NCBI GenBank assembly: GCA_021372895.1
Contig: JAJFTP010000054.1
Span: 1 to 45,481, forward strand
From: Synergistaceae bacterium
Lineage (GTDB): Bacteria; Synergistota; Synergistia; Synergistales; Synergistaceae
Length of the DNA stretch: 45,481 nt
Direction: 5' to 3'
In this document: one piece after another, positions 7,560-29,560 of the stretch
Layout: every line of letters starts with the position of its first letter
How positions within the stretch are numbered: the stretch's first letter is position 1
The notes under the pieces: model-generated
What the model was told of the DNA's origin: nothing
What the model saw: the letters and a program-made list of their open reading frames with translations, nothing else
Database searches by the model: none
Position numbers and translations under genes: made by a program

Positions 7560-7668
7560 ATTTGGATGCTCCTTGATTTAAAGTTGTTTTACGGGTAAGT
7601 ATATGCATGCACAAACAATGAGTCCTGTGCAGATGCCGTACTGTTCTTGCCGTACCTGTTCCGCAGTT

Positions 7669-8154
7669 TCAAACGGGACGGATGATATCGGCCACGGTTG
7701 CCTCGGTTACCTTTATAAGGTCATCAGGGCTGAGTTTGAAGAGCAGTCCCCTCTGCCCCGCGTTTACTGTTATAAAGTCATATAACATCGCCGTCTCGTC
7801 AATGTAGACCGGGTACTTTTTCTTTGTGCCGAGAGGGGAACATCCGCCGCGGATATATCCGGTCAATGGCTGGACCTCCTTAAGGCGGACGAGTTCCGCG
7901 CTTTTGTTGCCGCTTGCCGCTGCCAGCGCCTTGAAGTCAAGTTCCCGGCACGCAGGAACGCATACCATCATAACGCCTGTCTTATCTCCCCTTGCGCATA
8001 GAGTCTTGAAAGTCTGTTCTTCCGGTATGTTTGTCTTTGCCGCCGCGTCCTCGGCGGAGAGTTCCTCTTCATCTATCTCGTACTCAAGAAGCTCAAACGG
8101 GACTCCGGCGCTCTCCATTATCCTCACCGCGTTAGTTTTTTTCACAGATGCCAT
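7669..8154 (-). CDS. ybaK: YbaK/EbsC-type aminoacyl-tRNA deacylase (Cys-tRNA(Pro) editing)
   Basis: The 161-residue product belongs to the YbaK/ProX superfamily of free-standing editing domains. YbaK proper hydrolyses Cys-tRNA(Pro), a frequent mischarging product of prolyl-tRNA synthetase. Characteristic features are KTNAVRIMESAGVPFELLEY, the catalytic lysine region EEQTFKTLCARGDK, and GYIRGGCSPLGTKKKYPVYIDE with the conserved GGxSP(L/I)G(M/T)KK loop. An ATG fifteen bases upstream (8169) would place the GGAGGT ribosome site inside the gene, so the ATG at 8154, seven bases after that site, is the real start. The start region faces rnhA divergently. Confidence 0.92.
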   Translation of the reverse strand: MASVKKTNAVRIMESAGVPFELLEYEIDEEELSAEDAAAKTNIPEEQTFKTLCARGDKTGVMMVCVPACRELDFKALAAASGNKSAELVRLKEVQPLTGYIRGGCSPLGTKKKYPVYIDETAMLYDFITVNAGQRGLLFKLSPDDLIKVTEATVADIIRPV

Positions 8155-8231
8155 CTCTATACCTCCCATGCAGTATATAATAGAGTATAGCGCAATTATT
8201 TATACATAAGCGTTATGAAAGAGGGGTTTTA

Positions 8232-8624
8232 ATGGAAGGATATTTTGACGGGGCGTCGCGCGGGAATCCGGGAATAGCCGGTGCAGGGGCTCTGCTTGTA
8301 GATGATGACGGTACTGTCGTCTGGGAAACGGCTCGTTTTTTAGGTAAGAAGACCAACAACGAGGCGGAATACATGGCTCTGATACTTCTTCTGAATGCTG
8401 CACGCGAACGTAATGTGACAAAACTCAAGATATACGGAGACAGCAAACTTGTCATAAGCCAGGTCTCAAAGCAATGGAAGATAAACCTTCCGCATCTGCG
8501 GGCACTTGCTCAGGAGGCATGGGAACTTATGGAGGGCATGCAGGTCATACTTGGGTGGATCCCGCGGGAGCAGAACAGGCGCGCCGACGAGCTTTCAAAT
8601 CAAGGCATCGACGGGGCTGAATAA
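8232..8624 (+). CDS. rnhA: Type 1 ribonuclease H
   Basis: This 130-residue enzyme degrades the RNA strand of RNA-DNA hybrids, for example R-loops and Okazaki primers. The four acidic catalytic residues are all present: D6 in YFDGASRGNPG, E46 in NNEAEYMAL, D70 in YGDSKLVISQ and D119 in RRADELSN. It is shorter than the E. coli enzyme (155 residues) and resembles the compact form lacking the basic handle loop. It is followed by a strong terminator, so it is probably a single-gene unit divergent from ybaK. Confidence 0.95.
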   Translation: MEGYFDGASRGNPGIAGAGALLVDDDGTVVWETARFLGKKTNNEAEYMALILLLNAARERNVTKLKIYGDSKLVISQVSKQWKINLPHLRALAQEAWELMEGMQVILGWIPREQNRRADELSNQGIDGAE

Positions 8625-8649
8625 CAGATAACCGCCCGCCGTAAATATA

Positions 8650-8682
8650 AAATGCCCTGCATAAAAACGGCAGGGCATTTTT
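8650..8682. terminator. Strong bidirectional terminator between rnhA and the arn operon
   Basis: An 11-bp perfect stem (AAATGCCCTGC at 8650-8660 with GCAGGGCATTT at 8670-8680) is followed by further T. On the other strand it ends in ATTTTATATTT, so it can also stop the arn operon, whose last gene ends at 8823. Confidence 0.85.
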
Positions 8683-8728
8683 GAAAACTGTCCATAAAAT
8701 GGCGGTGTTAATAAAGGAGCGCTGAATA

Positions 8729-8803
8729 ATGGAACGCACAAAGGAACAGGTAAAACTATTGCATGTCTGTGCCGCTTGCCCGGCTTATTGCCGGTGTTTT
8801 TGA
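8729..8803 (+). CDS. Possible 24-residue Cys-rich small protein
   Basis: A short ORF begins with ATG nine bases after an AAAGGAG site and encodes 24 residues with four cysteines near the end (HVCAACPAYCRCF), a spacing compatible with metal binding. Its last codons overlap a CCGGC/GCCGG hairpin (8780-8784 with 8790-8794) and a T5 run, so the stop codon lies inside what looks like a terminator. I know no family with certainty. It could be a real small protein, a leader peptide, or the remnant of a longer gene. It lies alone between two terminator-like elements. Confidence 0.3.
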   Translation: MERTKEQVKLLHVCAACPAYCRCF

Positions 8804-8822
8804 TCCGCGTTCCCTTAAGGCA

Positions 8823-10154
8823 TTATCGAGACGGACGGCAGTTTCTTCCGATGCAGTAGTACTCAAATCCTAATTTTTGCATTTCCGCGGGATCGTAGAC
8901 GTTGCGTCCATCGAAGATTATTTTATATCTCATGAGAGGCGCCAGCTTTTCCCAGTCAAGTTCCTTGAACTCCGGCCACTCCGTAACCAGGACGGCGCAG
9001 TCCGCTCCTGTGAGAAGTGTTTTTACGTCTTGAACGTATTTTACTTCTTTTGGCAGTAAGGATGCTGCCTGAGGCATGGCTATGGGGTCGAATGCGGTGA
9101 CGGAGCTTCCGCAGTCGAGGAGCCCTCGTATCAGAGTTATTGCGGGAGCTTCGCGCATGTCATCGGTGTTGGGCTTGAACGCGAGTCCCATAACCGAGAC
9201 CCTGAGCCCCTCCATGTCGCTGCCGAACCTCTCCCTCATCATTATGTGGAGCAGTTCTTTCTGTTTCCGGTTGACCTTGATTATTGCAGATGCCATAGTC
9301 ATGTCCAGTCCCTGTCCCTCGCCTATATGGCAGAGAGCCTGCACGTCTTTGGGAAAACATGAGCCGCCGTATCCACAGCCGGCATTGAGGAAGTGTGTGC
9401 CTATGCGTCCGTCTGAGGCGATCCCTTTTTTTACTGAGGTGACATCCGCCCCTACCTTGTCGCAGAGCAGGGCAATCTCGTTCATGAAGCTTATGCGCGA
9501 TGCCAGCATGGCGTTAGCCGCATATTTTGTTATCTCCGCAGACGATGGGTCCATGAATAAAAGCTTGTCCTCATTGACGAATGATCCGTACAGTTCGCGC
9601 ATGACGGACTTTGCCGCCTCAGATGTGATACCTATGACGACACGGTCAGGATTGAGGCAGTCCTCTATTGCCATGCCCTCTTTCAAAAATTCAGGATTGG
9701 AGATTATCTCAAGATCGATTTTCTCAAGTCCGCGCTTGTTAAGGTAAGCTTTTATCCGCTTCCAGAGGAGGGTCCCGGTCCCCACCGGCACTGTCGATTT
9801 GACGACGATGTAGCAGGAATGGTCGATGTTTGCGCCGATATCGTCAATTGCCGCGAGGACCTGCGCAAGATCGGCGCTCCCATCTTCCGCAGGGGGCGTG
9901 CCCACTGCTATGAAGCAGAGCTGTGCCCCTTTGAGCCCGTCCTTTATATCTGTCGAAAAACAGAGTCTGCCGGTGTGCAGGTTTTTCTCCACCAGTTCGG
10001 CGAGGCCGGGTTCATATATCGGTATTATTCCCTGCTTAAGTTTTTCTATACGGTTTCTGTCTATGTCAATGCAGCAGACCTCATTGCCTTTTTCGGCAAA
10101 GCACGTCCCGGTCACGAGCCCGACATAGCCGGTTCCAACAACGCATATCTTCAT
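8823..10154 (-). CDS. ugd: UDP-glucose 6-dehydrogenase
   Basis: The 443-residue enzyme oxidises UDP-glucose to UDP-glucuronate with two NAD+, which supplies the entry substrate for L-Ara4N synthesis. The NAD-binding GTGYVGL lies at residues 7-13, the substrate-binding NPEFLKEG around 153, the catalytic cysteine C266 in GCGYGGSCFPKD, and the C-terminal UDP-binding domain includes GLAFKPNTDDMREAP. It is the last gene of the arn operon, starting 14 bases after the arnE/F-like gene with a GAGGGG ribosome site. Having ugd inside the operon makes the cluster self-sufficient from UDP-glucose onward. Confidence 0.96.
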   Translation of the reverse strand: MKICVVGTGYVGLVTGTCFAEKGNEVCCIDIDRNRIEKLKQGIIPIYEPGLAELVEKNLHTGRLCFSTDIKDGLKGAQLCFIAVGTPPAEDGSADLAQVLAAIDDIGANIDHSCYIVVKSTVPVGTGTLLWKRIKAYLNKRGLEKIDLEIISNPEFLKEGMAIEDCLNPDRVVIGITSEAAKSVMRELYGSFVNEDKLLFMDPSSAEITKYAANAMLASRISFMNEIALLCDKVGADVTSVKKGIASDGRIGTHFLNAGCGYGGSCFPKDVQALCHIGEGQGLDMTMASAIIKVNRKQKELLHIMMRERFGSDMEGLRVSVMGLAFKPNTDDMREAPAITLIRGLLDCGSSVTAFDPIAMPQAASLLPKEVKYVQDVKTLLTGADCAVLVTEWPEFKELDWEKLAPLMRYKIIFDGRNVYDPAEMQKLGFEYYCIGRNCRPSR

Positions 10155-10168
10155 GCTGTAAATCCCCC

Positions 10169-10540
10169 TCAGCTTTTTATCGTCAGCAGCGTAATGCCGA
10201 ATAATATCAATCCCATGCCTATTATTCTGATAACGGTTATCTTCTCTTTAAATATGAAAAATCCTATAAACAGCAGTATGAGGTATACAAGGCCGGACAT
10301 CAGAGGATAGGCCAGAGTGAGATCCGTGCGCGAGAGCGATGCGGCCATGAAGAAGAAGGAGATCCCGAAGAAACCCAGCCCCACTATTATCCAGGGGTTG
10401 AGAAGTATCCGCAGAAAAGCACCGACGATACCGGATGATACCATCGACGCGTCTCCGCCGTATGCGTGTTTCATGACAGTGCTCCCCATTGCGTTTGTGA
10501 CAGCCGAGGCGATAATAAGCAAAAGCCCTGCCTTGTCCAC
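10169..10540 (-). CDS. Small EamA-type membrane protein, probable L-Ara4N-phosphoundecaprenol flippase subunit
   Basis: The 123-residue protein has four predicted transmembrane helices and the half-size EamA/SMR layout of ArnE and ArnF, which in E. coli together move undecaprenyl-phosphate-L-Ara4N across the inner membrane. The segments AASLSRTDLTLAYPLMSGLVYLILLFIGFFIFKE and IIGMGLILFGI fit that family. Only one such gene is present here, so it may act as a homodimer. An ATG at 10564 exists, but the GTG at 10540 has an AGGAGGT site eight bases before it and leaves a one-base gap to arnD, so GTG is chosen. Confidence 0.8.
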   Translation of the reverse strand: MDKAGLLLIIASAVTNAMGSTVMKHAYGGDASMVSSGIVGAFLRILLNPWIIVGLGFFGISFFFMAASLSRTDLTLAYPLMSGLVYLILLFIGFFIFKEKITVIRIIGMGLILFGITLLTIKS

Positions 10541-10541
10541 T

Positions 10542-11426
10542 TTATCCGACCTCCTGTATCGCAAGCCTGCCTGCGCGTCCCGTCAGCGTGCCCATATTTA
10601 TATTACAGCACACGGGATTTGAATTTTTTGCATAGTCGAGCAGCGTAAAGAATTCCGTGCCGTGTTCTTCTGCCATAGTAATAAATTTTTCGAAAACCCC
10701 CAGCTTGGACATCCCCTCCATCTCGGCATGTACTGTAAGCACGTTCCATTCTTTGTCCATGCCTTTGAGCCAGAAAGAAGGGATAGTCTCATCGTTGATG
10801 CCCGGAAGGCCGTATATCTCATCCATTGTAGGGAGCGTCGTCGGGATCTGCACAGGGGAAAACTTACTGCCTTCAAATACCGGAATAAAAGGGAAATACC
10901 CCCTGACGTCGCTGCAGTAGTCAAGCATCATCTCCTGCTGTACATCAAGGCTCGCTTTTGATATCTGCCACCCCGGAGCAGCGCAGCTTCGCGGTTTTGT
11001 CCCCGAGAGGGTTTCGAACATCGAGGCCGCTTTATCAAAGAGGGATTTAAATTCCTCCTTTGAAATTTTGGATAGCCTATCCTGTACATACACGTGGTCC
11101 CAGGCGTGAACGCCGCAGTCGTGTCCATCTTTTATTGCTCGTACGAATATATCCGGTGCGGATGGGACAATGAGCGGGGCGGGCAGCAGCGTGCCATACA
11201 TAAGCGTTCTGAGTCCATATGTCGATGGAGCTTTTGTTCGGAGCATCTTTGATATGAAGCCTCTGCGGAATATCCTCCTTATTGCTTTGCCCGAGTTGTC
11301 TGGGCCGAACGAGAAGAAAATAGAGGCATGCAGGGAATGTCTTTTGAAAAGGTCAAGCATCCGCGGCACGCCTTCTTTGTATCCGCGCAGAGTATCGACG
11401 TCTACTTTTACAGCGAGTTTAGCCAA
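10542..11426 (-). CDS. arnD: ArnD-like deformylase (4-deoxy-4-formamido-L-arabinose-phosphoundecaprenol deformylase)
   Basis: This 294-residue polysaccharide-deacetylase-family (CE4) enzyme removes the formyl group from undecaprenyl-phosphate-L-Ara4FN. The metal-binding aspartates lie in VDVDT near the start and the histidines in HAWDH; EGVPRMLDLFKRHSLHASIFFSFGPDNSGKAIRR, read in two parts, aligns with the E. coli ArnD pattern, as does QIPTTLPTMDEI. The first ATG lies at 11447. I prefer the TTG at 11426, because AAGGAG stands just before it and the product then begins at the same point as E. coli ArnD. It overlaps the preceding gene by eight bases. Confidence 0.9.
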   Translation of the reverse strand: MAKLAVKVDVDTLRGYKEGVPRMLDLFKRHSLHASIFFSFGPDNSGKAIRRIFRRGFISKMLRTKAPSTYGLRTLMYGTLLPAPLIVPSAPDIFVRAIKDGHDCGVHAWDHVYVQDRLSKISKEEFKSLFDKAASMFETLSGTKPRSCAAPGWQISKASLDVQQEMMLDYCSDVRGYFPFIPVFEGSKFSPVQIPTTLPTMDEIYGLPGINDETIPSFWLKGMDKEWNVLTVHAEMEGMSKLGVFEKFITMAEEHGTEFFTLLDYAKNSNPVCCNINMGTLTGRAGRLAIQEVG

Positions 11427-12447
11427 TTTTTTCTCCTTGTTCCGCATGCCACTGAAGCGTTTTGTGCCGGATATCCCGTATATTTGTTTTAGGCTTCCAA
11501 CCGAGAAGAGACTCCATTTTTTCTATGGACGGCATGCGGTATTGCACATCCTCATACGTCTTTCCGTAGTAAGATTCGGATGTTACCGTTTCAAGCACAG
11601 CCGCCTCTGCCTTTTCGCGGAAGCAGGGGAACTGTTTCATCTCTTCGATGAGCATTTCGGCGAATTCCCTTATGGAGTAGTTGTTCGTCGGGTTGCCAAT
11701 GTTGAATATCTCCCCTGCCGCCTTCCTCCCGCGGTTTTCTATTATAGCCATCAACCCCTCTATGCCGTCCCCGATCCATGTGAAGCTGCGCCTTTGCTCT
11801 CCGCCGTTGACCAGTGATATTCTCCCGCGATGGAGCACATCGTAGATCATCTGTGTCCCGGAGCGAGCCGTACATTCCTCAGCGTCCTTGAACGTGTCAA
11901 GCCTGGGGCCGACCCAGTTGAAAGGGCGGAAGATCGTGAAATCAAGGCCCGTCTCCTGCCCGTAGGCAAATATCATTCTGTCCATCATCTGTTTGCTGCA
12001 GCTGTATATCCAGCGCATCTTCCTGATAGGCCCCGTTATAAGCTGACTCTCGTCTTCCTTGAGTATCGTGTCGCCGCTCATCCCATAAACTTCCGATGTA
12101 GACGGAAATATTATTCGCGTCTTGTGTTTTGCGCAGAAGCGCACGATCTTCAGGTTCTGCTCGAAGTCAAGCTCGAATGTCCACAACGGCTTCTGAAGAT
12201 AGTAGGCGGGCTTGGCTATTCCGGCCAAAGGAATTACAATGTCCGATCCTTTGACCTGTTCTTCAAGCCAGCCTGTATCTTTGAAGATGTTTCCCTGACG
12301 GAATTTGAAGCGTGGATTTCCGGCAAAAGGGGCGAGGTTATCAGACGCTATGTCAAACCCCCGCACATTCCAGTCGGTAGAGGCAATTATACCCTCCATC
12401 AGGTGTGTGCCAATAAAGCCGTTTACCCCGGTAATCAGTATTTTCAT
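11419..12447 (-). CDS. UDP-glucuronate oxidative decarboxylase, free-standing counterpart of the ArnA C-terminal domain
   Basis: The 342-residue protein is an extended short-chain dehydrogenase matching the C-terminal half of ArnA, which converts UDP-glucuronate to UDP-4-keto-pentose with NAD+. The nucleotide motif GVNGFIGTHL is at residues 7-16, the STSEVYGM strand carries the catalytic Ser/Thr, and YSCSKQMMDR holds the YxxxK pair. RPFNWVGPRLDTF and the GGEQRRSFTWIGDG segment with its Arg are typical of the ArnA/UXS decarboxylase group. In E. coli this domain is fused behind the formyltransferase; here it is a separate gene three bases after it, in the same order. Confidence 0.92.
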   Translation of the reverse strand: MKILITGVNGFIGTHLMEGIIASTDWNVRGFDIASDNLAPFAGNPRFKFRQGNIFKDTGWLEEQVKGSDIVIPLAGIAKPAYYLQKPLWTFELDFEQNLKIVRFCAKHKTRIIFPSTSEVYGMSGDTILKEDESQLITGPIRKMRWIYSCSKQMMDRMIFAYGQETGLDFTIFRPFNWVGPRLDTFKDAEECTARSGTQMIYDVLHRGRISLVNGGEQRRSFTWIGDGIEGLMAIIENRGRKAAGEIFNIGNPTNNYSIREFAEMLIEEMKQFPCFREKAEAAVLETVTSESYYGKTYEDVQYRMPSIEKMESLLGWKPKTNIRDIRHKTLQWHAEQGEKIG

Positions 12448-12450
12448 AAT

Positions 12451-13326
12451 CTATACATCCCTTTCAGGTTCGCCTTCCGGCTGCATTTTCAGCACATTCA
12501 AAACCCCGCTGCCCGTGCCGACCATCAGCGGTTTTTTTGATACGATCTCTCCCGGAGCCGCTCTGCCTTCGACAGGGACTGCCTTCCATATAAAGACTTT
12601 TTTGCCGCCCCAGTGTGTGAATGCGCCGGGGAAAGGATGTGTGACGGCTCGCACAAGGTTATATATCTCGACTGCAGGTTTATTCCAGTCTATCTCTCCG
12701 TCCGCAGGTCTGCGGCGTCCGAACTTTGTCGCTTTTGATTCGTCCTGCGGGATCCTCTTGGCTGTCCCGTCCTCGAGGGAATGCAGGGATGAGGCAAGTA
12801 TATCACAAGCCGCATCCACTACTTTAAGAAATACGTCATACGCCGTATCCTCAAAGAGTATTGCAACAGGCTTCTGTGCTATTATATCTCCCCTGTCCGC
12901 GAACTCAGTCATAACATGCAGAGTGGCTCCTGTCTCCGTCTCGCCGTTCAGCACTGCCCAGTTCACGCAGGCCCTGCCGCGATATTTCGGGAGCAGCGCC
13001 CCGTGGATGTTGTAAGCGCCTAGACGCGGGAGCTCAAGTACTTTCTTCGGTATCATAGCTCTGTAGTAGAAGGAGAATATCAGTTCAGGCTCAGCCTTAC
13101 GCACTTCCTCGATCTCCGCGGCATCGATCTCAGCCGGGGTCCTGACTGGTATCCCGTTCTCAAGTGCGAGCTCTTTGACGGAGCGGAACCATATCTTCTC
13201 TCCCGGGTCGTCTTCATGAGTAAATACAAGTACGACGTTTGCCCCATCGTTTATAAGTTTCTCAAGGCAGGCACTGCCAACCTCGCTGTATGCGAAAAGG
13301 ACTATCCTTGGCCTTTTATTCATCAT
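12451..13326 (-). CDS. UDP-L-Ara4N formyltransferase, free-standing counterpart of the ArnA N-terminal domain
   Basis: The 291-residue protein matches the N-terminal half of ArnA and the methionyl-tRNA formyltransferase fold. It transfers a formyl group from N10-formyltetrahydrofolate to the 4-amino group of UDP-L-Ara4N. The active-site block is present: the Asn-His pair in YNIHGALLPKYRGRACVNWA and the Asp in FADRGDIIAQ. The C-terminal FMT domain covers about 205-285. The family-typical EDDPGE loop near residue 38 is also seen in ArnA rather than in Fmt. It overlaps arnC by eleven bases. A second ATG three bases on is equally likely as the start. Confidence 0.92.
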   Translation of the reverse strand: MMNKRPRIVLFAYSEVGSACLEKLINDGANVVLVFTHEDDPGEKIWFRSVKELALENGIPVRTPAEIDAAEIEEVRKAEPELIFSFYYRAMIPKKVLELPRLGAYNIHGALLPKYRGRACVNWAVLNGETETGATLHVMTEFADRGDIIAQKPVAILFEDTAYDVFLKVVDAACDILASSLHSLEDGTAKRIPQDESKATKFGRRRPADGEIDWNKPAVEIYNLVRAVTHPFPGAFTHWGGKKVFIWKAVPVEGRAAPGEIVSKKPLMVGTGSGVLNVLKMQPEGEPERDV

Positions 13327-14248
13327 GCTGGAACATTTTCTTTACCGAATATCTGGGACGCCTGCTGACCTCTCTGTATATGCGCCCAAGGTATTCGCCG
13401 GTAATTCCAAGGCTGAAGAGCGTTATGCCGGTCAGAAGGAACTGTATCGCCATAAGGGTGAATACCCCCTCGACCTCTGGTCCCAGGATGAGTCGACGGA
13501 GGAACATATAGCATACCAGAAGGAAGGAGAGCGCTGATATCACCATGCCCGCCATCGTGACCATCTGAAGCGGGACGAGAGAAAAGCTGGTCATGAGGTC
13601 AAAGTTGAGGCGGATGAGCTGGAAGAGCCCGTATTTTGAAACGCCCATCTCGCGTTCCCTATGGGCTACCGGTATTTCTATCGGTTTTGCCGCGAATTTC
13701 TGCGCAAGAGCAGGAATAAAGGTAGTAGATTCACGGCTCTCGTTGATTATGTCTATGATCCTGCGGCTGTACCCCCGGAGCATGCAGCCGTAGTCTCGGA
13801 TGTTCAGCTTTGCAATGCGGTTTGTGAGTTTGTTGACAAGTTTAGACGCGATCTTTCTGAACGCAGGGTCTTTACGTCCGATACGATAAGTCCCTACGAC
13901 GTCATATCCTTCGTCCATCTTCGCGACTATGTTCGGTATCTCCTCCGGCGGATTCTGTAGGTCGGCGTCAAGCGTGATCACAATGCTGCCGAGCGCATGA
14001 TCGAAGCCTGCCATTATTGCCATGTGCTGTCCAAAGTTGCCATTGAGGTCTATTACCCTTACCTCGCGATGGGCTTTGTAAAAATCATACAGGATCCCAA
14101 GGGTCGAATCCTTGCTGCCGTCGTTTATGAATATTATCTCGAAAGAGCGTCCCATCTTCGTCATAACGGGATATAGGCTGTCAAAAAGCGCATGCAGCGA
14201 CTCTTCTTCGTTATATGCGGGTATGACGATCGAAATCTCGGGTTTCAT
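13316..14248 (-). CDS. arnC: Undecaprenyl-phosphate 4-deoxy-4-formamido-L-arabinose transferase
   Basis: The 310-residue protein is a GT2 glycosyltransferase with two C-terminal transmembrane helices, the ArnC/DPM1-like layout. It links L-Ara4FN to undecaprenyl phosphate on the cytoplasmic face of the inner membrane. Motifs seen are SIVIPAYNEEESL at the start, the DxD-like TLDADLQNPPEEIP, and the REREMGVSKYGLFQL segment. Membrane helices lie at about 230-255 and 265-290. The start is three bases after arnB; its end overlaps the formyltransferase gene. Position in a complete arn set makes the specific function more secure than sequence alone would. Confidence 0.92.
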   Translation of the reverse strand: MKPEISIVIPAYNEEESLHALFDSLYPVMTKMGRSFEIIFINDGSKDSTLGILYDFYKAHREVRVIDLNGNFGQHMAIMAGFDHALGSIVITLDADLQNPPEEIPNIVAKMDEGYDVVGTYRIGRKDPAFRKIASKLVNKLTNRIAKLNIRDYGCMLRGYSRRIIDIINESRESTTFIPALAQKFAAKPIEIPVAHREREMGVSKYGLFQLIRLNFDLMTSFSLVPLQMVTMAGMVISALSFLLVCYMFLRRLILGPEVEGVFTLMAIQFLLTGITLFSLGITGEYLGRIYREVSRRPRYSVKKMFQHDE

Positions 14249-14251
14249 TCT

Positions 14252-15421
14252 CTACCTTTCGTTCCCACAGACTTTGCGTACTGCTTCGACAACGTCATAC
14301 GCGTCCTCGTCATTCATCGCTGGGAAGAGCGGAAGGGAGACTATGCGGTCGGACACATATTCGGCCTCCGGCAGACTGCCCCTTCGAAGGCCGGTTACTT
14401 CCCCGTAGCAGGTGAAGAGATGCAGCGCCTGATAGTGTAGGGCTGTTCCAATGTTGAGATCCTTCATGCCTGCCATGAATTCGTCTCTCGTGATGCCAAG
14501 CCTGTCTATATCCACGAATGGCGTAAAAATATGCCAGCTGTGGGTGTACTCCCATGGTGCGGCCTTTGGAAGTATGAGGCCCTCAACATCGGCGAGTTCT
14601 TTCATGTAGAAGGAGACGATCCAGCGCCGCCTCGCATTGAAGCTATCGAGCTCGCGCAGCTGAGAATCCCCTATTGCCGCCTGAATGTCCATCATGGTGT
14701 ATTTTAGTCCGGGGAAGAAGATGTCGTAGTTTGCGCTGCCCTTTGCCGCGTACCTGTTCCATGCCCCTTTTGACATGCCGTTTTGCCTGAGCACAGAGAC
14801 CTTCTCTGCGATCTCCGCATCACCGGTGCATACCATCCCGCCTTCTCCTGTTGTTATATTCTTTGTCGGGTGGAAACTGAAAACTGATGCCCGGCGAATG
14901 CCTCTGTCGGCGCCTATCCTGCGTCCTTTATAGGATGCACCCAGAGCATGTGCCGCATCCTCGACTATCGCCAGCCCATATTTGTCAGCTATCGCCTCTA
15001 TCCGGTCCATGTCACAGGGCATGCCTGCAAAGTGGACAGGGATCATGGCGCGGGTTGCCGGTGTTACGGCAGCTTCTATTTTATCAGGATCAATGTTTAG
15101 TGTGTCTCTGTCTATATCTACGAAGACAGGTTTTGCGCCGGCAAAAAGTATTGCATTTACTGTTGCAGCAAACGTCATCGGGGTGGTTATCACTTCGTCG
15201 CCGCGGCCTATGCCAAGCGCCATGAGCGCAGTATGCAGGCCAGCGGTAGCGGAATTCACGGAAAGAGCCCATGATGCTCCGGTGTAGTTTGCGAAATTCT
15301 CTTCAAAACGTATCGTCTTCGGCCCCATCGAGAGCCAGCCCGATCTGATAGAATCAGCTACGTCCGCTATCGCTTCCTCGCTTATGGACGGTTTTGCAAA
15401 AGGAAGAAATTCTTTTCTCAT
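14252..15421 (-). CDS. arnB: UDP-4-amino-4-deoxy-L-arabinose--oxoglutarate aminotransferase
   Basis: The 389-residue PLP enzyme of the DegT/DnrJ/EryC1/StrS family transfers an amino group from glutamate to UDP-4-keto-arabinose. The PLP lysine lies in SFHPTKNITTGEGGM, the cofactor-stacking region in VEDAAHALGASYKG, and the N-terminal FLPFAKPSISEEAI and RSGWLSMGPKT match ArnB closely. Its ATG overlaps the arnT stop as ATGA, so translation of the two is coupled. A second DegT-family enzyme at 31947 lies outside this pathway. Confidence 0.95.
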   Translation of the reverse strand: MRKEFLPFAKPSISEEAIADVADSIRSGWLSMGPKTIRFEENFANYTGASWALSVNSATAGLHTALMALGIGRGDEVITTPMTFAATVNAILFAGAKPVFVDIDRDTLNIDPDKIEAAVTPATRAMIPVHFAGMPCDMDRIEAIADKYGLAIVEDAAHALGASYKGRRIGADRGIRRASVFSFHPTKNITTGEGGMVCTGDAEIAEKVSVLRQNGMSKGAWNRYAAKGSANYDIFFPGLKYTMMDIQAAIGDSQLRELDSFNARRRWIVSFYMKELADVEGLILPKAAPWEYTHSWHIFTPFVDIDRLGITRDEFMAGMKDLNIGTALHYQALHLFTCYGEVTGLRRGSLPEAEYVSDRIVSLPLFPAMNDEDAYDVVEAVRKVCGNER

Positions 15422-17082
15422 TTAGTGCCCTCCCTGTTGAAGAGGATCAAGTATCTGTCCACTTCTATCTTTTTTGTCTCACCGGCATTTCCCCCCGGGA
15501 AAAGTTCCCCTAGGCGGTCTTTTCTTATAATAAGGACATAGGGCTTCTTCCTTGCCTGCCATTCCACGCGGAATTCCTCTGCGGAAGGGAACCACCCTTT
15601 GCCTTCTCTCTGATTTGCCCCGAACCTCAGTTCACCTGAATAATCTATCAGCATGACACGCCGCTTCGTATAGAAGGGTATACCCTGAAGGACCTCGCCG
15701 TAAACGGCAATTGTATCATCTTCAGCCGCATTATTTATTATCACGCTTGAGACTTGATAAGAGGAGCGTGTCTGTCCCATTATTTTATAAATGTCCTGCA
15801 TCCCGGCTATAAAGAAGCACGCTGAAACGCATAGGATTACCGCAGCAGTTCTGAAATCCTTTCGTCGTCCGCGTGTGATCCAGAAGGCGCAAAAAGGGCC
15901 TGTCAGAAGTCCCGCCGACAGCTTTATAGCTATGGTGAGAGCTCTTGAATGGGCAATCACATCACCGGTGGCTGCGTAAAAAAACAGCCCCGCAGAAAAA
16001 ACCAGCGCGATACCTGCCGACCATATAAGCGCCCACCCGTGCCATTGTCTCTGCCTGACCATGCGGTCAATGTCCGCGGCTATCAAAATCGCAAGAGGGG
16101 GCAGGCATGGCACTATGTAGGGGATGAGCTTAGAATCCGATAGCGAGTAAAATAGCAGAATGACGCCGGACCAGAGAAGCAGAAAAAGGGTCGCATCCTT
16201 GGCTGCACTATTGTCCGGTGTCCTGACGATACTTTTCCTGCTGAACAATGCGAGGAAAAAACCGGTCCACGGCACCAGCGCGGCGGGTATGATAGGCAAA
16301 AAATACCAGAATGGTTCATAGCGGTGATGTATCTTTGTAGTATAGCGAAGAAAATGTTCCTGAATAAAAAAGAAATGGAAAAAGTCAGGGTTGTCGCGGC
16401 ACACGAGATAGAACCAGGGCACAGAGATAGCCAGGAATAAAATGATACCCGGAATATAGAGAACATCCGGTACAAGCCGCCATTTGCGGGACAATACGAT
16501 ATACCAGAAAATTATCCCGCCTGGCAGGACGATAGCCACGAGTCCCTTTGTAAGCAGACCAAGCGCCATAGCCGCGTAGAAAAGCAGGAACCATCGCCGG
16601 TCTTTTTTTATTTGCCCGACATAAAAAGCGGCAAGTGCCAGGGTCATAAAGAACGAGAGCGGCATGTCCGTCACATTTATCGTTCCTATGACGAAGTAAA
16701 GCAGGGATGTGGCTGTTACCAAAGCGGATAAGATCCCGACGCTGTTTCCGAACATGAACGCGCCCAACAGTCCCACAGCGGCCGTGCCCAGCACAGCACA
16801 TGAGGCGGAGGCGAAACGCGCGGCAAAATCCGTCTCTCCGAAGAGTTTGAAGCTGCCTGCGTTCATCCAGTAGAGAAGCACCGGCTTTTCAAAATATTTG
16901 ACATAGTTCAGCATAGGAGTTATATAATTTCCCGACTCTATCATCTCCCGCGGTATTTCAGCGTAGCGTCCTTCGTCAGGTTCCAGCAGGGGGTGCGAGC
17001 CTATGGGGATGAAATATATCACCAGTATTGCCGCAATGACTGCCAAAAGCAGCATATTCCTTTTTGACAGGGATGGATCCAT
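15418..17082 (-). CDS. arnT: ArnT-like lipid A aminoarabinose transferase
   Basis: This 554-residue integral membrane glycosyltransferase (GT83/PMT-like) moves L-Ara4N from undecaprenyl phosphate to lipid A on the periplasmic side. It has about twelve hydrophobic helices and the diagnostic periplasmic loop PLLEPDEGRYAEIPREM, in which the acidic pair is catalytic in the family, followed by YFEKPVLLYW. It is the first gene of the operon, unlike in enterobacteria where arnB is first. A TTG at 17112 with no clear ribosome site could add ten residues; the ATG at 17082 is preferred because it matches the family start, although its own ribosome site is weak too. Confidence 0.9.
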   Translation of the reverse strand: MDPSLSKRNMLLLAVIAAILVIYFIPIGSHPLLEPDEGRYAEIPREMIESGNYITPMLNYVKYFEKPVLLYWMNAGSFKLFGETDFAARFASASCAVLGTAAVGLLGAFMFGNSVGILSALVTATSLLYFVIGTINVTDMPLSFFMTLALAAFYVGQIKKDRRWFLLFYAAMALGLLTKGLVAIVLPGGIIFWYIVLSRKWRLVPDVLYIPGIILFLAISVPWFYLVCRDNPDFFHFFFIQEHFLRYTTKIHHRYEPFWYFLPIIPAALVPWTGFFLALFSRKSIVRTPDNSAAKDATLFLLLWSGVILLFYSLSDSKLIPYIVPCLPPLAILIAADIDRMVRQRQWHGWALIWSAGIALVFSAGLFFYAATGDVIAHSRALTIAIKLSAGLLTGPFCAFWITRGRRKDFRTAAVILCVSACFFIAGMQDIYKIMGQTRSSYQVSSVIINNAAEDDTIAVYGEVLQGIPFYTKRRVMLIDYSGELRFGANQREGKGWFPSAEEFRVEWQARKKPYVLIIRKDRLGELFPGGNAGETKKIEVDRYLILFNREGTK

Positions 17083-17216
17083 TATGAAAACAGCACCTTT
17101 CTTTACCTCCAAAGTCTGATTGAGTATTGCCGCATATAAAACGATCTGTTTGTATAAAATTAAACTTTTCCTGCTTAGTTTACTATATAAAGTCGGATCA
17201 ACACATAATTATCATG

Positions 17217-17235
17217 TAACATTTCTGTAATGTTA
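17217..17235. promoter_or_regulatory. Perfect inverted repeat upstream of the arn operon
   Basis: TAACATT (17217-17223) and AATGTTA (17229-17235) form a perfect 7-bp inverted repeat around a 5-base centre. It lies between the terminator of the tct operon and arnT, about 135 bases before the arnT ATG. It is a candidate operator for arn control. It does not match the PmrA box (tandem CTTAAT). Confidence 0.35.
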
Positions 17236-17251
17236 TCCCGCTGTAAATTAT

Positions 17252-17294
17252 AAAACATGACACAGACAATGAGTGTGATGTCTGCGTCATGTTT
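17252..17294 (-). terminator. Terminator of the cit/tct operon
   Basis: A 16-bp stem with a single A-C mismatch (17253-17268 with 17279-17294) encloses a 10-base loop. On the minus strand it is followed by TTTTATAATTT. It sits 33 bases after the tctA stop and separates that operon from arn. Confidence 0.8.
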
Positions 17295-17326
17295 CGGTGC
17301 TATAACAATTTTTTTTTGCAAAAGCA

Positions 17327-18829
17327 TCACGCTGTATATGTCTTTTTCTTTTTTCTCCAATCGCTGATGAACGGCCATGCGATAGAGATGACCGTAAGGG
17401 CAAACAGAACCAGGCAAATTGGCGAACGGAAGAGGATGGACACGCTGCCGTCAGAGAGCATGAGCGACTGGCGCAGTGACTGTTCCATTGAGGCCCCGAC
17501 GACAACGGCAAGGATCAAGGGGGATGTCGGCACCTTATATCTCTTCATGAAATATCCGAAAAGCCCGAATATCACAAGCAGTACAAAATCAAGGGTGCTG
17601 AAATTTATAGTGTAGACCCCGATAAGGGCCATAATGACTATAAGGGGGTAGAGTATCTTGGCAGGAACGGCAAGGACACGCACCAGCAGACTTGCAAGGG
17701 GTATGTTTATTATCGCGCAGATCACATTGCCTATAAACATACTTGCTATGACGGTCCACGCAATATCCGCATGCTGCTGGAAGAGCAGCGGCCCGGGCTG
17801 AAGGCCCAGGATCATGAGCGCACCAAGCATAACGGCTGTAGTGCCGGAACCGGGAACGCCCAGAGTCATCATCGGAATGAGGGCGCCTACGGAGCAGGCG
17901 TTGTTGGCTGCTTCAGGTGCGGCAAGGCCGACGATCTCGCCTTTTCCAAAATCCTCAGGGTTCTTTGCAAGCTGTTTTTCATTGTTGTAAGCCATAAGAC
18001 AGGCGATCGTTCCTCCTGCGCCGGGAAGTACCCCGATAAAGAAACCTACCGGGGTCTGGCGTATCATAGGCCACCAGCAGCGTTTGAACTGTGCCATTGT
18101 GACCCATATCCTGCCGAACTTTTTCTGTACTTTTACATTGAGCTCGGATTTAATGTGCTCCATGTTATGGAAGACCTCGCCGAGACCGTATACGCCAATG
18201 ATCACGATTACAAAATCAATGCCGGTCTGCAGTGCGGTAATTCCGAAAGTGAAACGGATGGCGCCTGACTGAGGGTCGATCCCGACTGTTGCTATCATAA
18301 GTCCAAGGCACATGGAGAGAAGCCCCTTCAGCAGAGCCTCTTTCGATATTGCTGCAGTAGCCGCCAGAGCGAAACACATCAGCATAAAATATTCCGGGGG
18401 GCCGAACTTAAGCGCGAAACGTGCTATTGGTACGGCAATTGCGACGAACGCTATCGTTGCGATAAGTCCGCCGATGAACGATGCGATCGCTGATATCGCG
18501 AGGGCTGCCTCCGCCTGCCCGTTCTGGGACATGGGATAGCCGTCGAAGCACGAGGCGACCGCTGCCCCGTCGCCGGGAACATTCAGAAGTATTGAGCTTC
18601 TTGAGCCGCCGAACATGGCCCCGTAGTATATCGCACACATCGTTACCAGCGCGGTGTCTGGAGCCATTGTAAACGTCAGCGGCATGAGAAGCGCTATCCC
18701 TGTCGTGGGGCCTAGGCCGGGGAGCATGCCGAGCACTGTCCCTAGAGCTGAACCTGCACAGAGCCAGATGATGTTCAGGGGGGTGAGTGCGTTTATGAAT
18801 CCGATAGAGAGCAGATGTAAAACTTCCAT
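17327..18829 (-). CDS. tctA: Tripartite tricarboxylate transporter, large membrane subunit TctA
   Basis: The 500-residue inner-membrane protein has about twelve helices and is the permease subunit of a TTT-family secondary transporter that works with TctB and the periplasmic binding protein TctC. The family-defining repeats are visible as GTVLGMLPGLGPTTGIALLMPLTF near the start and FFIGVLPGAGGTIACLMAY around residue 320, each with the loop that contacts substrate. An upstream in-frame start at 18931 would read through tctB; the ATG at 18829 has an AGGGGGAT site and fits the family start. It is the last gene of the citDEF-tctCBA operon. Confidence 0.95.
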   Translation of the reverse strand: MEVLHLLSIGFINALTPLNIIWLCAGSALGTVLGMLPGLGPTTGIALLMPLTFTMAPDTALVTMCAIYYGAMFGGSRSSILLNVPGDGAAVASCFDGYPMSQNGQAEAALAISAIASFIGGLIATIAFVAIAVPIARFALKFGPPEYFMLMCFALAATAAISKEALLKGLLSMCLGLMIATVGIDPQSGAIRFTFGITALQTGIDFVIVIIGVYGLGEVFHNMEHIKSELNVKVQKKFGRIWVTMAQFKRCWWPMIRQTPVGFFIGVLPGAGGTIACLMAYNNEKQLAKNPEDFGKGEIVGLAAPEAANNACSVGALIPMMTLGVPGSGTTAVMLGALMILGLQPGPLLFQQHADIAWTVIASMFIGNVICAIINIPLASLLVRVLAVPAKILYPLIVIMALIGVYTINFSTLDFVLLVIFGLFGYFMKRYKVPTSPLILAVVVGASMEQSLRQSLMLSDGSVSILFRSPICLVLFALTVISIAWPFISDWRKKKKTYTA

Positions 18830-18843
18830 AATGATCCCCCTTC

Positions 18844-19284
18844 CTAGGGCAGTGTTATAACAAAAACTTTTTCGAATATGTACCAGATGCCGAGCGTGAA
18901 ACAGATGGCCGTGAGTATATTGGCCTTCCATCCTTTGACGCCGTTGACAAGAAAGAGCATCGCGCCCAAAAAGAGTATCGTGCTAATGATAAAACCGATT
19001 TTTTCAAGTATTGCCGCATAAACAAGGCATAGGACTATGAGTCCTGCAATCAGGATCCAGTAGCCCTTGTCCGAGGTCTTTGCCTTCTTTGCCACAGGTC
19101 CTTTTTTCACGCCTCTTATGAGCAGTGCTACAGAAAAAATTATGGCCATCGCTCCGACAACGAGCGGAAAATATTTTGGAGCCATGGGGTTGCCTATCGC
19201 AGCACTAGGCAGTTCCCATGCGGCTATTGTGTATGCTATGCTGAATACGGCTGCGAAGGAACCCACTATGACGTCAGGATTCAT
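18844..19284 (-). CDS. tctB: Tripartite tricarboxylate transporter, small membrane subunit TctB
   Basis: This 146-residue protein has four predicted transmembrane helices. It matches the poorly conserved TctB subunit in length, in the early segment AWELPSAAIGNPMAPKYFPLVVGA (which is characteristic of the family), and in position between tctC and tctA. It forms the inner-membrane part of the transporter with TctA. A hairpin between tctC and tctB may lower its expression relative to the binding protein. Confidence 0.92.
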   Translation of the reverse strand: MNPDVIVGSFAAVFSIAYTIAAWELPSAAIGNPMAPKYFPLVVGAMAIIFSVALLIRGVKKGPVAKKAKTSDKGYWILIAGLIVLCLVYAAILEKIGFIISTILFLGAMLFLVNGVKGWKANILTAICFTLGIWYIFEKVFVITLP

Positions 19285-19310
19285 AGAATTTCACTCCCTT
19301 ATTTAGTGAC

Positions 19311-19337
19311 GGCACGGCAGGTCGACCCTGCCGCGCC
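19311..19337 (-). promoter_or_regulatory. Intercistronic hairpin between tctC and tctB
   Basis: An 11-bp stem with one A-C mismatch (19311-19321 with 19327-19337) and a 5-base loop lies 20 bases after the tctC stop. On the minus strand no T-run follows, so it is not a normal terminator. Such hairpins often protect the upstream message from 3' decay and so raise the binding protein over the membrane subunits. Confidence 0.5.
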
Positions 19338-19357
19338 GCAATTAACTGGTCTGTCAT

Positions 19358-20344
19358 TTACTGCTTTTTGAGGAATCCTATCTCACCGAGAATGACCTTA
19401 TATTCCTCATTAGTTTTATCAAGGAACTTCGTGAATTCATCAGATCCCATGTAGACTGGTTCCCAGCCGTTCTTGACGCAGATATCCTTCCATGCTTTAG
19501 TCTCGCTCATTTTTTTCAGAGCTCCGGCCATGAAATTACGTTCCGCCTTGCCCATTCCGGGGGTGCCGAAGAGCCCGCGCCAGTTGATGAAAACTGTATC
19601 AATACCGGATTCCTTGAGTGTAGGAACTGCCTTGAGAACTCCGCTCTTGATGCGTGACGGGGAGCTTACGGCAAGAACTTTGATGTCCCCTGATTCAAAT
19701 GCGCCGACCGTCTCAGCCATTCCTGTGGAGAGAAGATCGATATGCCCGCCCATCAATGCAGCCATGGCGCCCTCCTGAAGTGAAATATATGGTATTTCCT
19801 TAAGGTTCTTGACTCCGGCTGCCCTTGCTGCCTGCAGGAACTGGATGTGGTCCATGCTGCCCGCGGAGCTCATTCCTCCGACCTTGACGCTCTTGGGGTC
19901 TTTCTTCAGTGCTTCCATTACCTCTTTGATGTTCTTAAACTTTGAGTCTTTTGGCACAGCAAAAGCTCCAAAATCATTGATCAGCATTGCTATCGGTGTG
20001 AGGTCCTTGTAACCGAGTTCCGTCTGTCCGGTCAGATTAATAAGGAGGAGAGGTGGTGAATAGACGGTGATGGTGTACGGATTACCTTTTTTCTTCTGCA
20101 TGTAGGCAAGGTTGACCGCTCCGCCGCCTCCCGGTTTGTTGGTTACTGGCATCGGCTGGGTAATGATCTTTTCCTCGGCAAGCACTCTTCCCACCATACG
20201 GATCGTTGTATCCCAGCCGCCGCCGGCACCGGCCGGAGCCAGAAATTCAAAGGGCTTGGAGGGATAGGATGCGGCAAGCGCCGCGCATGCAAATACTGCG
20301 ATGATAAGTGTCGTTAGTGCGATAACTGCAGATGTCCGTTTCAT
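19358..20344 (-). CDS. tctC: Tripartite tricarboxylate transporter substrate-binding protein TctC
   Basis: The 328-residue periplasmic binding protein begins with a clear signal peptide (MKRTSAVIALTTLIIAVF, cleavage after about residue 23). It has the Bug/TctC features YPSKPFEFLAPAGAGGGWDTTIR and MPVTNKPGGGGAVNLAYM, which bind a carboxylate. Its partner citrate lyase genes suggest citrate or a related tricarboxylate as the substrate, though this is inferred from context. An upstream in-frame start at 20377 was rejected because the ATG at 20344 has an AAGGAGG site and begins the signal peptide. It follows citF by 38 bases. Confidence 0.95.
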   Translation of the reverse strand: MKRTSAVIALTTLIIAVFACAALAASYPSKPFEFLAPAGAGGGWDTTIRMVGRVLAEEKIITQPMPVTNKPGGGGAVNLAYMQKKKGNPYTITVYSPPLLLINLTGQTELGYKDLTPIAMLINDFGAFAVPKDSKFKNIKEVMEALKKDPKSVKVGGMSSAGSMDHIQFLQAARAAGVKNLKEIPYISLQEGAMAALMGGHIDLLSTGMAETVGAFESGDIKVLAVSSPSRIKSGVLKAVPTLKESGIDTVFINWRGLFGTPGMGKAERNFMAGALKKMSETKAWKDICVKNGWEPVYMGSDEFTKFLDKTNEEYKVILGEIGFLKKQ

Positions 20345-20382
20345 TAAAAAAACCTCCTTGTATTTTTTAATCGGCACAGAGG

Positions 20383-21942
20383 CTAACTCCGTACTTTGTA
20401 GACGGTATCTATCAATGTTCCGTCCCTGTATTCCACGAGGGCGACAGGCTTGGATCCGTCGAAATCTATGGGTTCAGTCTCACCTGTGAGTGAGATGATT
20501 TCTTTGCGCAGGTCTTCAATGTCCTTTACCGGCAGATCAGCCTTGAGGGCCATTTCGAGGATGTCCTGCCGTCTTGGGTTTATGGATATTCCTCGTTCTG
20601 TGACGATGGCATCCACGCTCTCGCCTGGTGTCACAACGGTTTGGACCTGTTTTTTTATCGAAGAGACCCCGTTGCGGAACGATGGCGCTACCATTATTGC
20701 AAGTTTTGCTCCCGCTGATGCGTCACAGTGCCCGCCGGAAGCTCCGCGCAGATATCCGTCGTGTCCGGTCAGTACATTCACGTTGAAGTCAACGTCAAGA
20801 TCCAGTGCCCCCAGCACGCAGACATCAAGTTCATGAGTCATGCAGCCGCAGTTCATCGGGTTTGCGTAGCACGAAGGGTCGATCTCATAGTGAGTCGGGT
20901 TGCGCAGCATCGAGTCCCCCATTTTAGGGTCGAAGCTCTGGACGTCGTAAACTGCCTTAAAAAGCCCCTCCTCAAGGAGTTTGATCATGTCGCCTGTGAT
21001 GCCCCCGAGTGCGAAGCTGCCCTGTATGCCTTTGTCTGTCATATGTTTCTTTATGTACTGAGTCACGGCGATAGAGACTCCGCCTGCGCCTGCCTGATAT
21101 GAAAACCCTGGCCTTATGATCCCGACGGCTTTTATAAGTTCATAGGCATTGTGTGCGATCTCAAGCTGCTGCGGGCTTCTGGTTATACGCACGGCGCCTG
21201 TGGCAAGCTTATCGGGATCCCCTATGGAATCAACCACTACTACCTGGTGGACCAGATGCTGATGTATGGAAATTTTTGGGGCAAGCGGGAACGGAACAAG
21301 GTTGTCCGTTATCGCCACCACATGCCTTGCGCTTCTTGAGTCCTGCATCCCGTAACCGATCGAACCGAACATAGAGGGACCGAAAGACCCTGTCATGTTG
21401 CCTCTGTCGTCGCATGCTGATGCGGCCAGAAATGCTACGTCAATGGAGATAGATCCCTCTTCTATCGCACGGGCGCGGCCGCCGTGGCTCCTTACAACTA
21501 TCGGTATCTCCATCTCACCGCGCGAGACCAGGTTCCCTATGCGGCCCCTGATCCCCGATGTGTATATTCTGGATACGACGCCGCTTCTGACGTAGTCTGC
21601 TACGAATTCATGGCTGTCGGATAGGGAGCTTGGCGCAAGAGTAAGGTCCCTTATGCCCAGGGATCCTATCTCCTTAAGAACCATCTCAAGCACCTTGTCC
21701 CCATTGCGCAGGTGGTGGTGAAAAGATATCGTCATCCCATCGCTGAGCCCCGAGTTGATGATCGCGGTTCTAATATCAGCCGTTATTTTGCTTTTGCCGC
21801 GGGGAACAGTGTCTGCCTCAAAAGCACAGTACTTTGCTTTTGTCCCCGCCATAGCAAAAGCGCCCTCAAACGGCCTGAAATTGCCGAGTCCGGGGACCTC
21901 TGTCGGAACCAAACGGCCAAGAGAATTTTTTACCATATCCAT
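20383..21942 (-). CDS. citF: Citrate lyase alpha subunit (citrate:acetyl-ACP transferase)
   Basis: The 519-residue subunit exchanges acetyl for citryl on the lyase acyl carrier protein, the first half-reaction of citrate cleavage to acetate and oxaloacetate. Family features include the N-terminal KNSLGRLVPTEVPG, the SFHHHLRNGDKVLEMVL segment, GGITGDMIKLLEEG and RGASGGHCDASAGAKL near the end. An in-frame start at 21996 overlaps citE; the ATG at 21942 has a GGAGGTG site, leaves a one-base gap to citE, and matches the family start. The subunit set D-E-F is in the usual order. Confidence 0.95.
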   Translation of the reverse strand: MDMVKNSLGRLVPTEVPGLGNFRPFEGAFAMAGTKAKYCAFEADTVPRGKSKITADIRTAIINSGLSDGMTISFHHHLRNGDKVLEMVLKEIGSLGIRDLTLAPSSLSDSHEFVADYVRSGVVSRIYTSGIRGRIGNLVSRGEMEIPIVVRSHGGRARAIEEGSISIDVAFLAASACDDRGNMTGSFGPSMFGSIGYGMQDSRSARHVVAITDNLVPFPLAPKISIHQHLVHQVVVVDSIGDPDKLATGAVRITRSPQQLEIAHNAYELIKAVGIIRPGFSYQAGAGGVSIAVTQYIKKHMTDKGIQGSFALGGITGDMIKLLEEGLFKAVYDVQSFDPKMGDSMLRNPTHYEIDPSCYANPMNCGCMTHELDVCVLGALDLDVDFNVNVLTGHDGYLRGASGGHCDASAGAKLAIMVAPSFRNGVSSIKKQVQTVVTPGESVDAIVTERGISINPRRQDILEMALKADLPVKDIEDLRKEIISLTGETEPIDFDGSKPVALVEYRDGTLIDTVYKVRS

Positions 21943-21943
21943 A

Positions 21944-22837
21944 TTAAAGCACCTCCGCCGGGTCGCAGGATATTCCCGCCTGAGCAAGCACGGCAAGCGC
22001 CTGCCTTACGACAGGGCCGTCGACCATATTGCCGTCGACCGCATAGACTCCGATAGATTTTATTTTTGCATCTTTAGCTGCAGCGACAACTTTTTCGGCA
22101 TGTCGGATAGCCTGTTCCTCCGGACGGAAGGCCTCGTTGATCACGCGTACCTGTGAGGGATGTATCGCGGCCTTTCCCGTAAAACCCAGCTGTGCGGCAA
22201 GTGACGCTTCCCTGTAAAGGCCCTCCGTGTCGTTGATGTCGGTGAAGACGGTGTCGAAACATGCGATACCTGCTGCTCTTGCGGCTATGACGACCCTGCT
22301 TCTTGCATAAAGTATCTCTACTCCCTCTTTGCTCCTGCGTACGCCGATATCAGCGGCCAGGTCCTGACCGCCAAGAGTAATGGCTGATACCCTGGGACAT
22401 GCGCGCGCGATCTCCGAAGCTCTCTCGACTGCCGCCGCAGTTTCTATCATCGCATGTATTTCAATGGAACCGGAAGGGATACCCTCGGCTGTTTCTATCT
22501 CCAAGATCGCGGAATCCAGCTCTCTGATATCTGCAGGATCTTCGCATTTCGGGAGCCTCACCGCATGCGGACGGGTCGGAATAATTTCTTTAAGGTCGTC
22601 GCGCCACCAAGGGGTGTCGGTCCCGTTTATTCTGACCGTGACCTCTGTATTCCCAAAATCAAGTTTACGCAAGAAATATGCCAGCAGTCTGCGTGCCTCG
22701 TCTTTGCAGTCCGGGCTTACCGCATCCTCCAAATCCAGAAGCAGCCCGTCAGCACCCAGGCAACAGCAATTTTGGAGCATGTTGGGATTGTTGCCGGGCA
22801 TATAGAGCATAGAACGACGGGGTCTCACAACGTTCAT
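21944..22837 (-). CDS. citE: Citrate lyase beta subunit (citryl-ACP lyase)
   Basis: The 297-residue subunit is of the HpcH/HpaI aldolase superfamily and cleaves citryl-ACP to oxaloacetate and acetyl-ACP. It has RRSMLYMPGNNPNM at the start, the metal-binding LLLDLEDAVSPDCKDEAR block, the VRINGTDTPWWRDDL strand with the conserved Arg, and AMIETAAAVERASEIA with the catalytic Glu. The C-terminal segment GKAAIHPSQVRVINEAF is standard. Its start overlaps the citD stop by four bases. Confidence 0.95.
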   Translation of the reverse strand: MNVVRPRRSMLYMPGNNPNMLQNCCCLGADGLLLDLEDAVSPDCKDEARRLLAYFLRKLDFGNTEVTVRINGTDTPWWRDDLKEIIPTRPHAVRLPKCEDPADIRELDSAILEIETAEGIPSGSIEIHAMIETAAAVERASEIARACPRVSAITLGGQDLAADIGVRRSKEGVEILYARSRVVIAARAAGIACFDTVFTDINDTEGLYREASLAAQLGFTGKAAIHPSQVRVINEAFRPEEQAIRHAEKVVAAAKDAKIKSIGVYAVDGNMVDGPVVRQALAVLAQAGISCDPAEVL

Positions 22838-29522: not shown

Positions 29523-29560
29523 GACAGCGTGAGATACCTTTGAAGGGCAGGAACAGCATT

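Follow-up and report, generated by a model that had tools for sequence, protein, structure and literature searches.

Does a Synergistaceae bacterium encode the whole route from UDP-glucose to outer-membrane lipid A modified with the positively charged sugar 4-amino-4-deoxy-L-arabinose (L-Ara4N), and are a divided ArnA and a lone ArnE/F-type flippase gene peculiarities of one genome or the normal form in its phylum? We addressed these questions in a 45,481-nucleotide stretch of DNA (the window) that lies on contig C54 of a Synergistaceae MAG (G000; 1.84 Mb, 97 contigs, 96% complete). Gene content, gene order, residue conservation, phylum-wide conservation and other lipid A genes of the same genome make it very probable that the locus is a vertically maintained L-Ara4N operon, the enzymatic steps and the lipid A target being those that we infer from established Arn biochemistry.

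A complete L-Ara4N gene set in one operon

The original prediction placed a complete L-Ara4N gene set in a single minus-strand operon, and both gene positions and family scans bear this out. All eight genes lie where predicted on the minus strand (17082–8823), in the order arnT, arnB, arnC, formyltransferase (FT), UDP-glucuronate oxidative decarboxylase (DH), arnD, SMR-type flippase and ugd. Successive gaps from arnT to ugd are −4, +3, −11, +3, −29, +1 and +14 bases. Many relatives carry these genes in the same order, so chance does not explain the arrangement.

Every gene assignment is backed by NCBIfam and Pfam scans, and homologues of ArnA-FT, ArnA-DH, ArnB, ArnC, ArnD and ArnT are present together. 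The operon begins with arnT (17082–15418; 554 aa; PRK13279, 273 bits; Arnt_C domain), which encodes a lipid A 4-amino-4-deoxy-L-arabinosyltransferase homologue. This is followed by the UDP-4-ketopentose aminotransferase gene arnB (15421–14252; PRK11658, 414 bits) and the undecaprenyl-phosphate Ara4FN transferase gene arnC (14248–13316; PRK10714, 336 bits; 48% identity to E. coli ArnC). The two halves of ArnA are encoded by FT (13326–12451; PRK06988, 382 bits) and DH (12447–11419; PRK11908, 458 bits). Downstream are the Ara4FN-phosphoundecaprenol deformylase gene arnD (11447–10542; PRK15394, 224 bits; Polysacc_deac_1), a gene for a single ArnE/F-type SMR flippase subunit (10540–10169; 123 aa) and a TuaD-type UDP-glucose 6-dehydrogenase gene, ugd (10154–8823; TIGR03026, 438 bits against a cut-off of 190; TuaD, 514 bits). 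The flippase scores 29.9 bits against Multi_Drug_Res (cut-off 23.7) in a scan that used a longer, 131-aa open reading frame.

ATG at 17082 is the most likely start of arnT, because a longer frame from TTG would overlap a GGAGG ribosome-binding site. We set the flippase start at GTG 10540, since its orthologues begin there, with MDK or MDR. An AT-rich intergenic stretch upstream of arnT (17083–17326, minus strand) contains a hairpin, likely the tct terminator, and a promoter-like match (ATAACA-17-GATAAT) that agrees with the consensus at 9 of 12 positions, by consensus comparison only. A palindrome in this stretch (TAACATT-N5-AATGTTA), which overlaps the promoter-like match, was rejected as a conserved operator, as relatives do not conserve it.

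Further upstream, on the same strand, positions 17327–22837 hold tripartite tricarboxylate transporter-like genes and then citrate lyase genes (citF, 20383–21996; citE, 21944–22837). This is likely a citrate fermentation cluster.

The catalytic residues compared in FT, DH and ArnB are all conserved, with those of E. coli ArnA and ArnB as reference. In alignments to E. coli, FT residues N102/H104/D140 correspond to N106/H108/D144, DH residues S433/E434/Y463/K467/R619 correspond to S118/E119/Y148/K152/R304, and the PLP lysine K188 of ArnB corresponds to K187. ArnT is 30% identical to E. coli ArnT and retains both the RYA and YFEKP motifs. The closest solved structures to FT and DH are E. coli ArnA and, for DH, also the stand-alone ‘PbgP3’ (3slg), presumably a Burkholderia pseudomallei protein. 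For ArnT they are 5ezm (E 6e-66) and 5f15, which we take to be from Cupriavidus metallidurans. ArnT (273 vs 567 bits), ArnC, ArnD and ArnB all fall short of the cut-offs of their enterobacterial equivalog models, and the acceptor and exact sugar are therefore not fixed by sequence.

Following the known pathway, Ugd would convert UDP-glucose to UDP-glucuronate, which the stand-alone DH would oxidatively decarboxylate to the UDP-4-ketopentose. ArnB would aminate this intermediate, the stand-alone FT would N-formylate the product, and ArnC would transfer Ara4FN onto undecaprenyl phosphate. After deformylation of the undecaprenyl-phosphate-linked sugar by ArnD, the lone SMR protein, which probably forms an antiparallel homodimer, would flip undecaprenyl-P-Ara4N across the membrane. 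On the periplasmic side, ArnT would attach Ara4N to lipid A.

A divided ArnA is the rule in Synergistota

FT and DH were predicted to be separate, adjacent genes, and they match the two halves of the ArnA model as separate open reading frames (ArnA-N, 310 bits; ArnA-C, 419 bits). Neither resembles the fused enzyme (PRK08125; one protein of ~660 aa, cut-off 777 bits), and both score above the curated cut-offs of stand-alone NCBIfam models (PRK06988, 316; PRK11908, 294).

This arrangement had been presented as an oddity, a view that does not survive comparison: a split ArnA is normal for this phylum, is known in Cupriavidus and Burkholderia, has its own stand-alone NCBIfam models and is represented in the PDB by 3slg. 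About 103 of 188 Synergistota genomes have strong ArnA-model matches (E<1e-80, counted by hand from the rows), and 110 of 188 have ArnT-type matches. FT and DH are always separate genes in the Synergistota stretches examined; in Fretibacterium and many rumen MAGs they are not even neighbours. An ArnA profile search found no true fusion among the 188 genomes. The sole row over the fused-ArnA cut-off, in genome G009, was rejected as a fusion: an ambiguous N at the junction joins two frames, FT and DH are in different frames in sibling genomes, and without the N the G009 FT frame would end in TGA.

Several rumen Synergistota loci (L081, L083, L088, L090 and others) have the order ArnC-FT-ArnD-ArnB'-DH-ArnT. 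Their ArnB' is about 36% identical to the window ArnB, and the aminotransferase may have been replaced in these loci.

A single SMR-type flippase

The prediction of one 123-residue flippase-like protein also holds: the gene is the only match in the whole genome, and a search of G000 at E<=0.01 gave no further ArnE/F-like half. Here too the feature turns out to be ordinary, as a single gene is the rule in the phylum and is found in Cupriavidus and Burkholderia. Lipid-type SMRs of GEBA genomes were all singletons in a published survey, in which singleton SMRs had a K/R bias near zero and lipid SMRs often had the central Glu replaced by Asn (PMC9574504).

The window flippase shares these features. 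It has a conserved Asn16 at the central-Glu position (31 of 33 alignment rows, the 33 including two E. coli controls without Asn), an AYP motif and a K/R charge bias of −1, and it is encoded within an arn operon. Counted from the alignment, the bias of 30 of 31 orthologues falls within +/-2. The paired genes and opposite charge bias of the ArnE/ArnF heterodimer (−6 and +4 in E. coli, counted by hand) are not seen here. Near-zero bias, Asn16 and the singleton lipid SMRs of the survey make a homodimer the likely form, its dual topology being deduced from charges only.

Lipid A as the predicted target

LpxC was identified in 111 of 116 high-quality Synergistota genomes. LpxC, LpxA, LpxD, BamA and LptFG were not found in the G000 assembly. 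Relatives keep bamA-lpxD-lpxC-fabZ-lpxA-lptFG together, and G000 lacks this whole stretch. The missing block is ~19 kb and includes CodY-like, sigma-factor, birA and selD genes and, by scores, prfB, the genes flanking the lpx block having been named from a reading of their sequences and not from a family scan. Because prfB and bamA, lost in the same block, are not credibly dispensable, the absence of LpxC is most probably an assembly gap. An organism without lipid A is disfavoured for the same reason: LpxC is missing, but so is a ~19 kb block with the universal prfB.

Elsewhere in G000, contig C78 carries lpxI, lpxB, msbA, lpxK, kdsA, kdsD and waaA. We found no lipid A structure from any Synergistota, and nothing usable on Synergistota with polymyxin or Ara4N, in the literature searched.

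One 808-aa open frame on contig C78 (L146, positions 7592–10018) combines a ‘lipid-A-disaccharide synthase-related’ domain (TIGR03492) with LpxK. The window itself encodes a 403-aa protein (29540–30751) that matches LpxB only weakly (PF02684, 33 bits) and matches no NCBIfam model. Over 114 residues it is 31% identical to the TIGR03492 domain encoded on C78, a distant likeness.

Alternative explanations

We weighed other accounts of the acceptor and the flippase. The pathway might end on another glycolipid or on a sugar of the core, for example Kdo, ArnT then being a related transferase; the low ArnT score and identity leave room for this, and for Burkholderia ArnT an additional role in core modification has been proposed (PMC5377068). 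The motifs, the Arnt_C domain and the 5ezm match that the window ArnT keeps speak against it, as do the lipid A pathway genes in the same genome, and we consider it unlikely. We give slightly less credence still to a heterodimer in which the SMR protein pairs with a second subunit encoded at another genomic site or hidden in a gap. E. coli does need both ArnE and ArnF, and the G000 assembly contains gaps; but there is a single match in G000 and in most complete relatives, the charge bias is near zero, and the GEBA lipid transporters were without partners (PMC9574504). We prefer a homodimeric flippase that serves lipid A modification.

A different origin for the divided ArnA would be recent fission, a fused ArnA having been received and then cut by a stop codon. 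The window junction could be read this way, with FT and DH in one frame, a 3-base gap and TAG-ATT-ATG between them. Yet in-frame junctions occur in only 5 of 19 cases, close to the one-third that chance alone would give, and in sister genomes the junction has a gap of 4 and a frame of +1. Fission also sits poorly with a phylum of 188 genomes without a true fusion (the G009 candidate has the N at its junction), with FT and DH that are non-adjacent in many relatives such as Fretibacterium, and with a window DH nested in a Synergistota clade (97/84). We consider it highly improbable. Recent transfer from a fused-ArnA lineage followed by splitting, the outcome that the original prediction had set against its own reading, is not seen in the trees and is accordingly disfavoured, and a divided ArnA maintained within the phylum is preferred. 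The in-frame junctions, no commoner than chance, and the differing sisters also led us to reject an FT-DH fusion by stop-codon readthrough.

Evolutionary history

With paralogues as the root, the DH tree separates Synergistota, Pectinatus and Elusimicrobiota (97/84) from Proteobacteria, in which split Cupriavidus and fused enterobacterial forms fall together (90/76). The named relatives of the window DH are Synergistaceae MAGs (closest, 78% identity). DH sequences of Pectinatus (L075–L077) and Elusimicrobiota (L095, L111, L114, L118 and L120) sit inside the Synergistota clade, which suggests, given the sampling, that the arn operon passed from Synergistota to these lineages. We found nothing usable on Pectinatus Ara4N in the literature. 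A scan of viral contigs returned one lone DH.

Resolution is lower in the FT tree, where Cupriavidus FT falls inside the Synergistota rows, with weak support and on a long branch. The divided genes had been proposed to show the pre-fusion state. What stands of this proposal is that the trees are consistent with it and that one change of state on the DH tree explains fused versus split forms. What does not stand is firm polarity between fusion and fission: the rooting is weak, and AU tests leave both all split forms as one clade (p 0.32) and the other alternative (p 0.10) standing. An ancestral split ArnA is thus favoured by parsimony and consistent with the trees, though unproven.

A second ArnT in the same genome

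Contig C77 of G000 (L150) encodes a second ArnT (ArnT2; 7203–5464; 573 aa), followed by an OmpR-type response regulator (5385–4666) and a sensor histidine kinase (4735–3263) in the PmrA/CopR-PmrB/CopS range. ArnT2 scores 496 bits, against 273 for the operon ArnT, and clusters with enterobacterial ArnT proteins (SH-aLRT 100) as a gammaproteobacterial-type protein. The composition of C77 fits the genome, as its tetranucleotide correlation (0.90) is in the range of the other contigs (0.87–0.93). ArnT matches at this level occur only in G000 and G103 among the 188 Synergistota genomes. ArnT2 and its two-component system may be an acquired, inducible arm.

A tentative picture joins these strands, although we think it more doubtful than not as a whole. 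A split ArnA and a homodimeric flippase would be ancestral, and the operon would have moved from Synergistota to Pectinatus and Elusimicrobiota. Fused ArnA and ArnE/F would be gammaproteobacterial derivatives, and the second ArnT, next to a PmrAB/CopRS-like system, would add an inducible layer.

Ara4N modification probably occurs widely in Synergistota, and intrinsic polymyxin resistance or tolerance is a plausible prediction from the gene content for part of this gut and digester phylum.

Comparison with known systems

E. coli arnBCADTEF has the same enzymatic steps and catalytic residues as the window operon; it differs in its fused ArnA, its ArnE/ArnF pair, the lack of ugd in the operon and the position of arnT after arnD. 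The window FT and DH resemble stand-alone enzymes, passing the curated cut-offs of the stand-alone formyltransferase (PRK06988) and of the UDP-4-keto-pentose/UDP-xylose synthase (PRK11908, presumably Ralstonia-type), a match that does not fix whether the DH product is the ketopentose or UDP-xylose.

Closer counterparts are found on three Cupriavidus replicons (C. campinensis, sp. EM10 and C. metallidurans; L130, L141 and L142), which carry arnT, one ArnE/F gene, arnB, arnC, FT, DH and arnD. Like the window, they keep FT and DH as separate genes within an arnC-FT-DH-arnD series, have a lone ArnE/F-type gene, and include arnT and arnB in the cluster. Unlike the window, they place the flippase gene between arnT and arnB; no ugd was found in the stretch, and the proteins are 31–57% identical to those of the window.

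Burkholderia thailandensis provides an experimental parallel: its lipid A carries Ara4N, it resists colistin, and its BTH_I2189–I2196 genes include two for ArnA (I2191 and I2190) and one ArnE/F homologue (I2194) (PMC7835334). These features match the window, although the B. thailandensis genes form two transcription units and those of the window one operon. The E. coli standard of a fused ArnA and an ArnE/ArnF pair is not the general form, and the Synergistaceae layout broadens a known system more than it uncovers something new.
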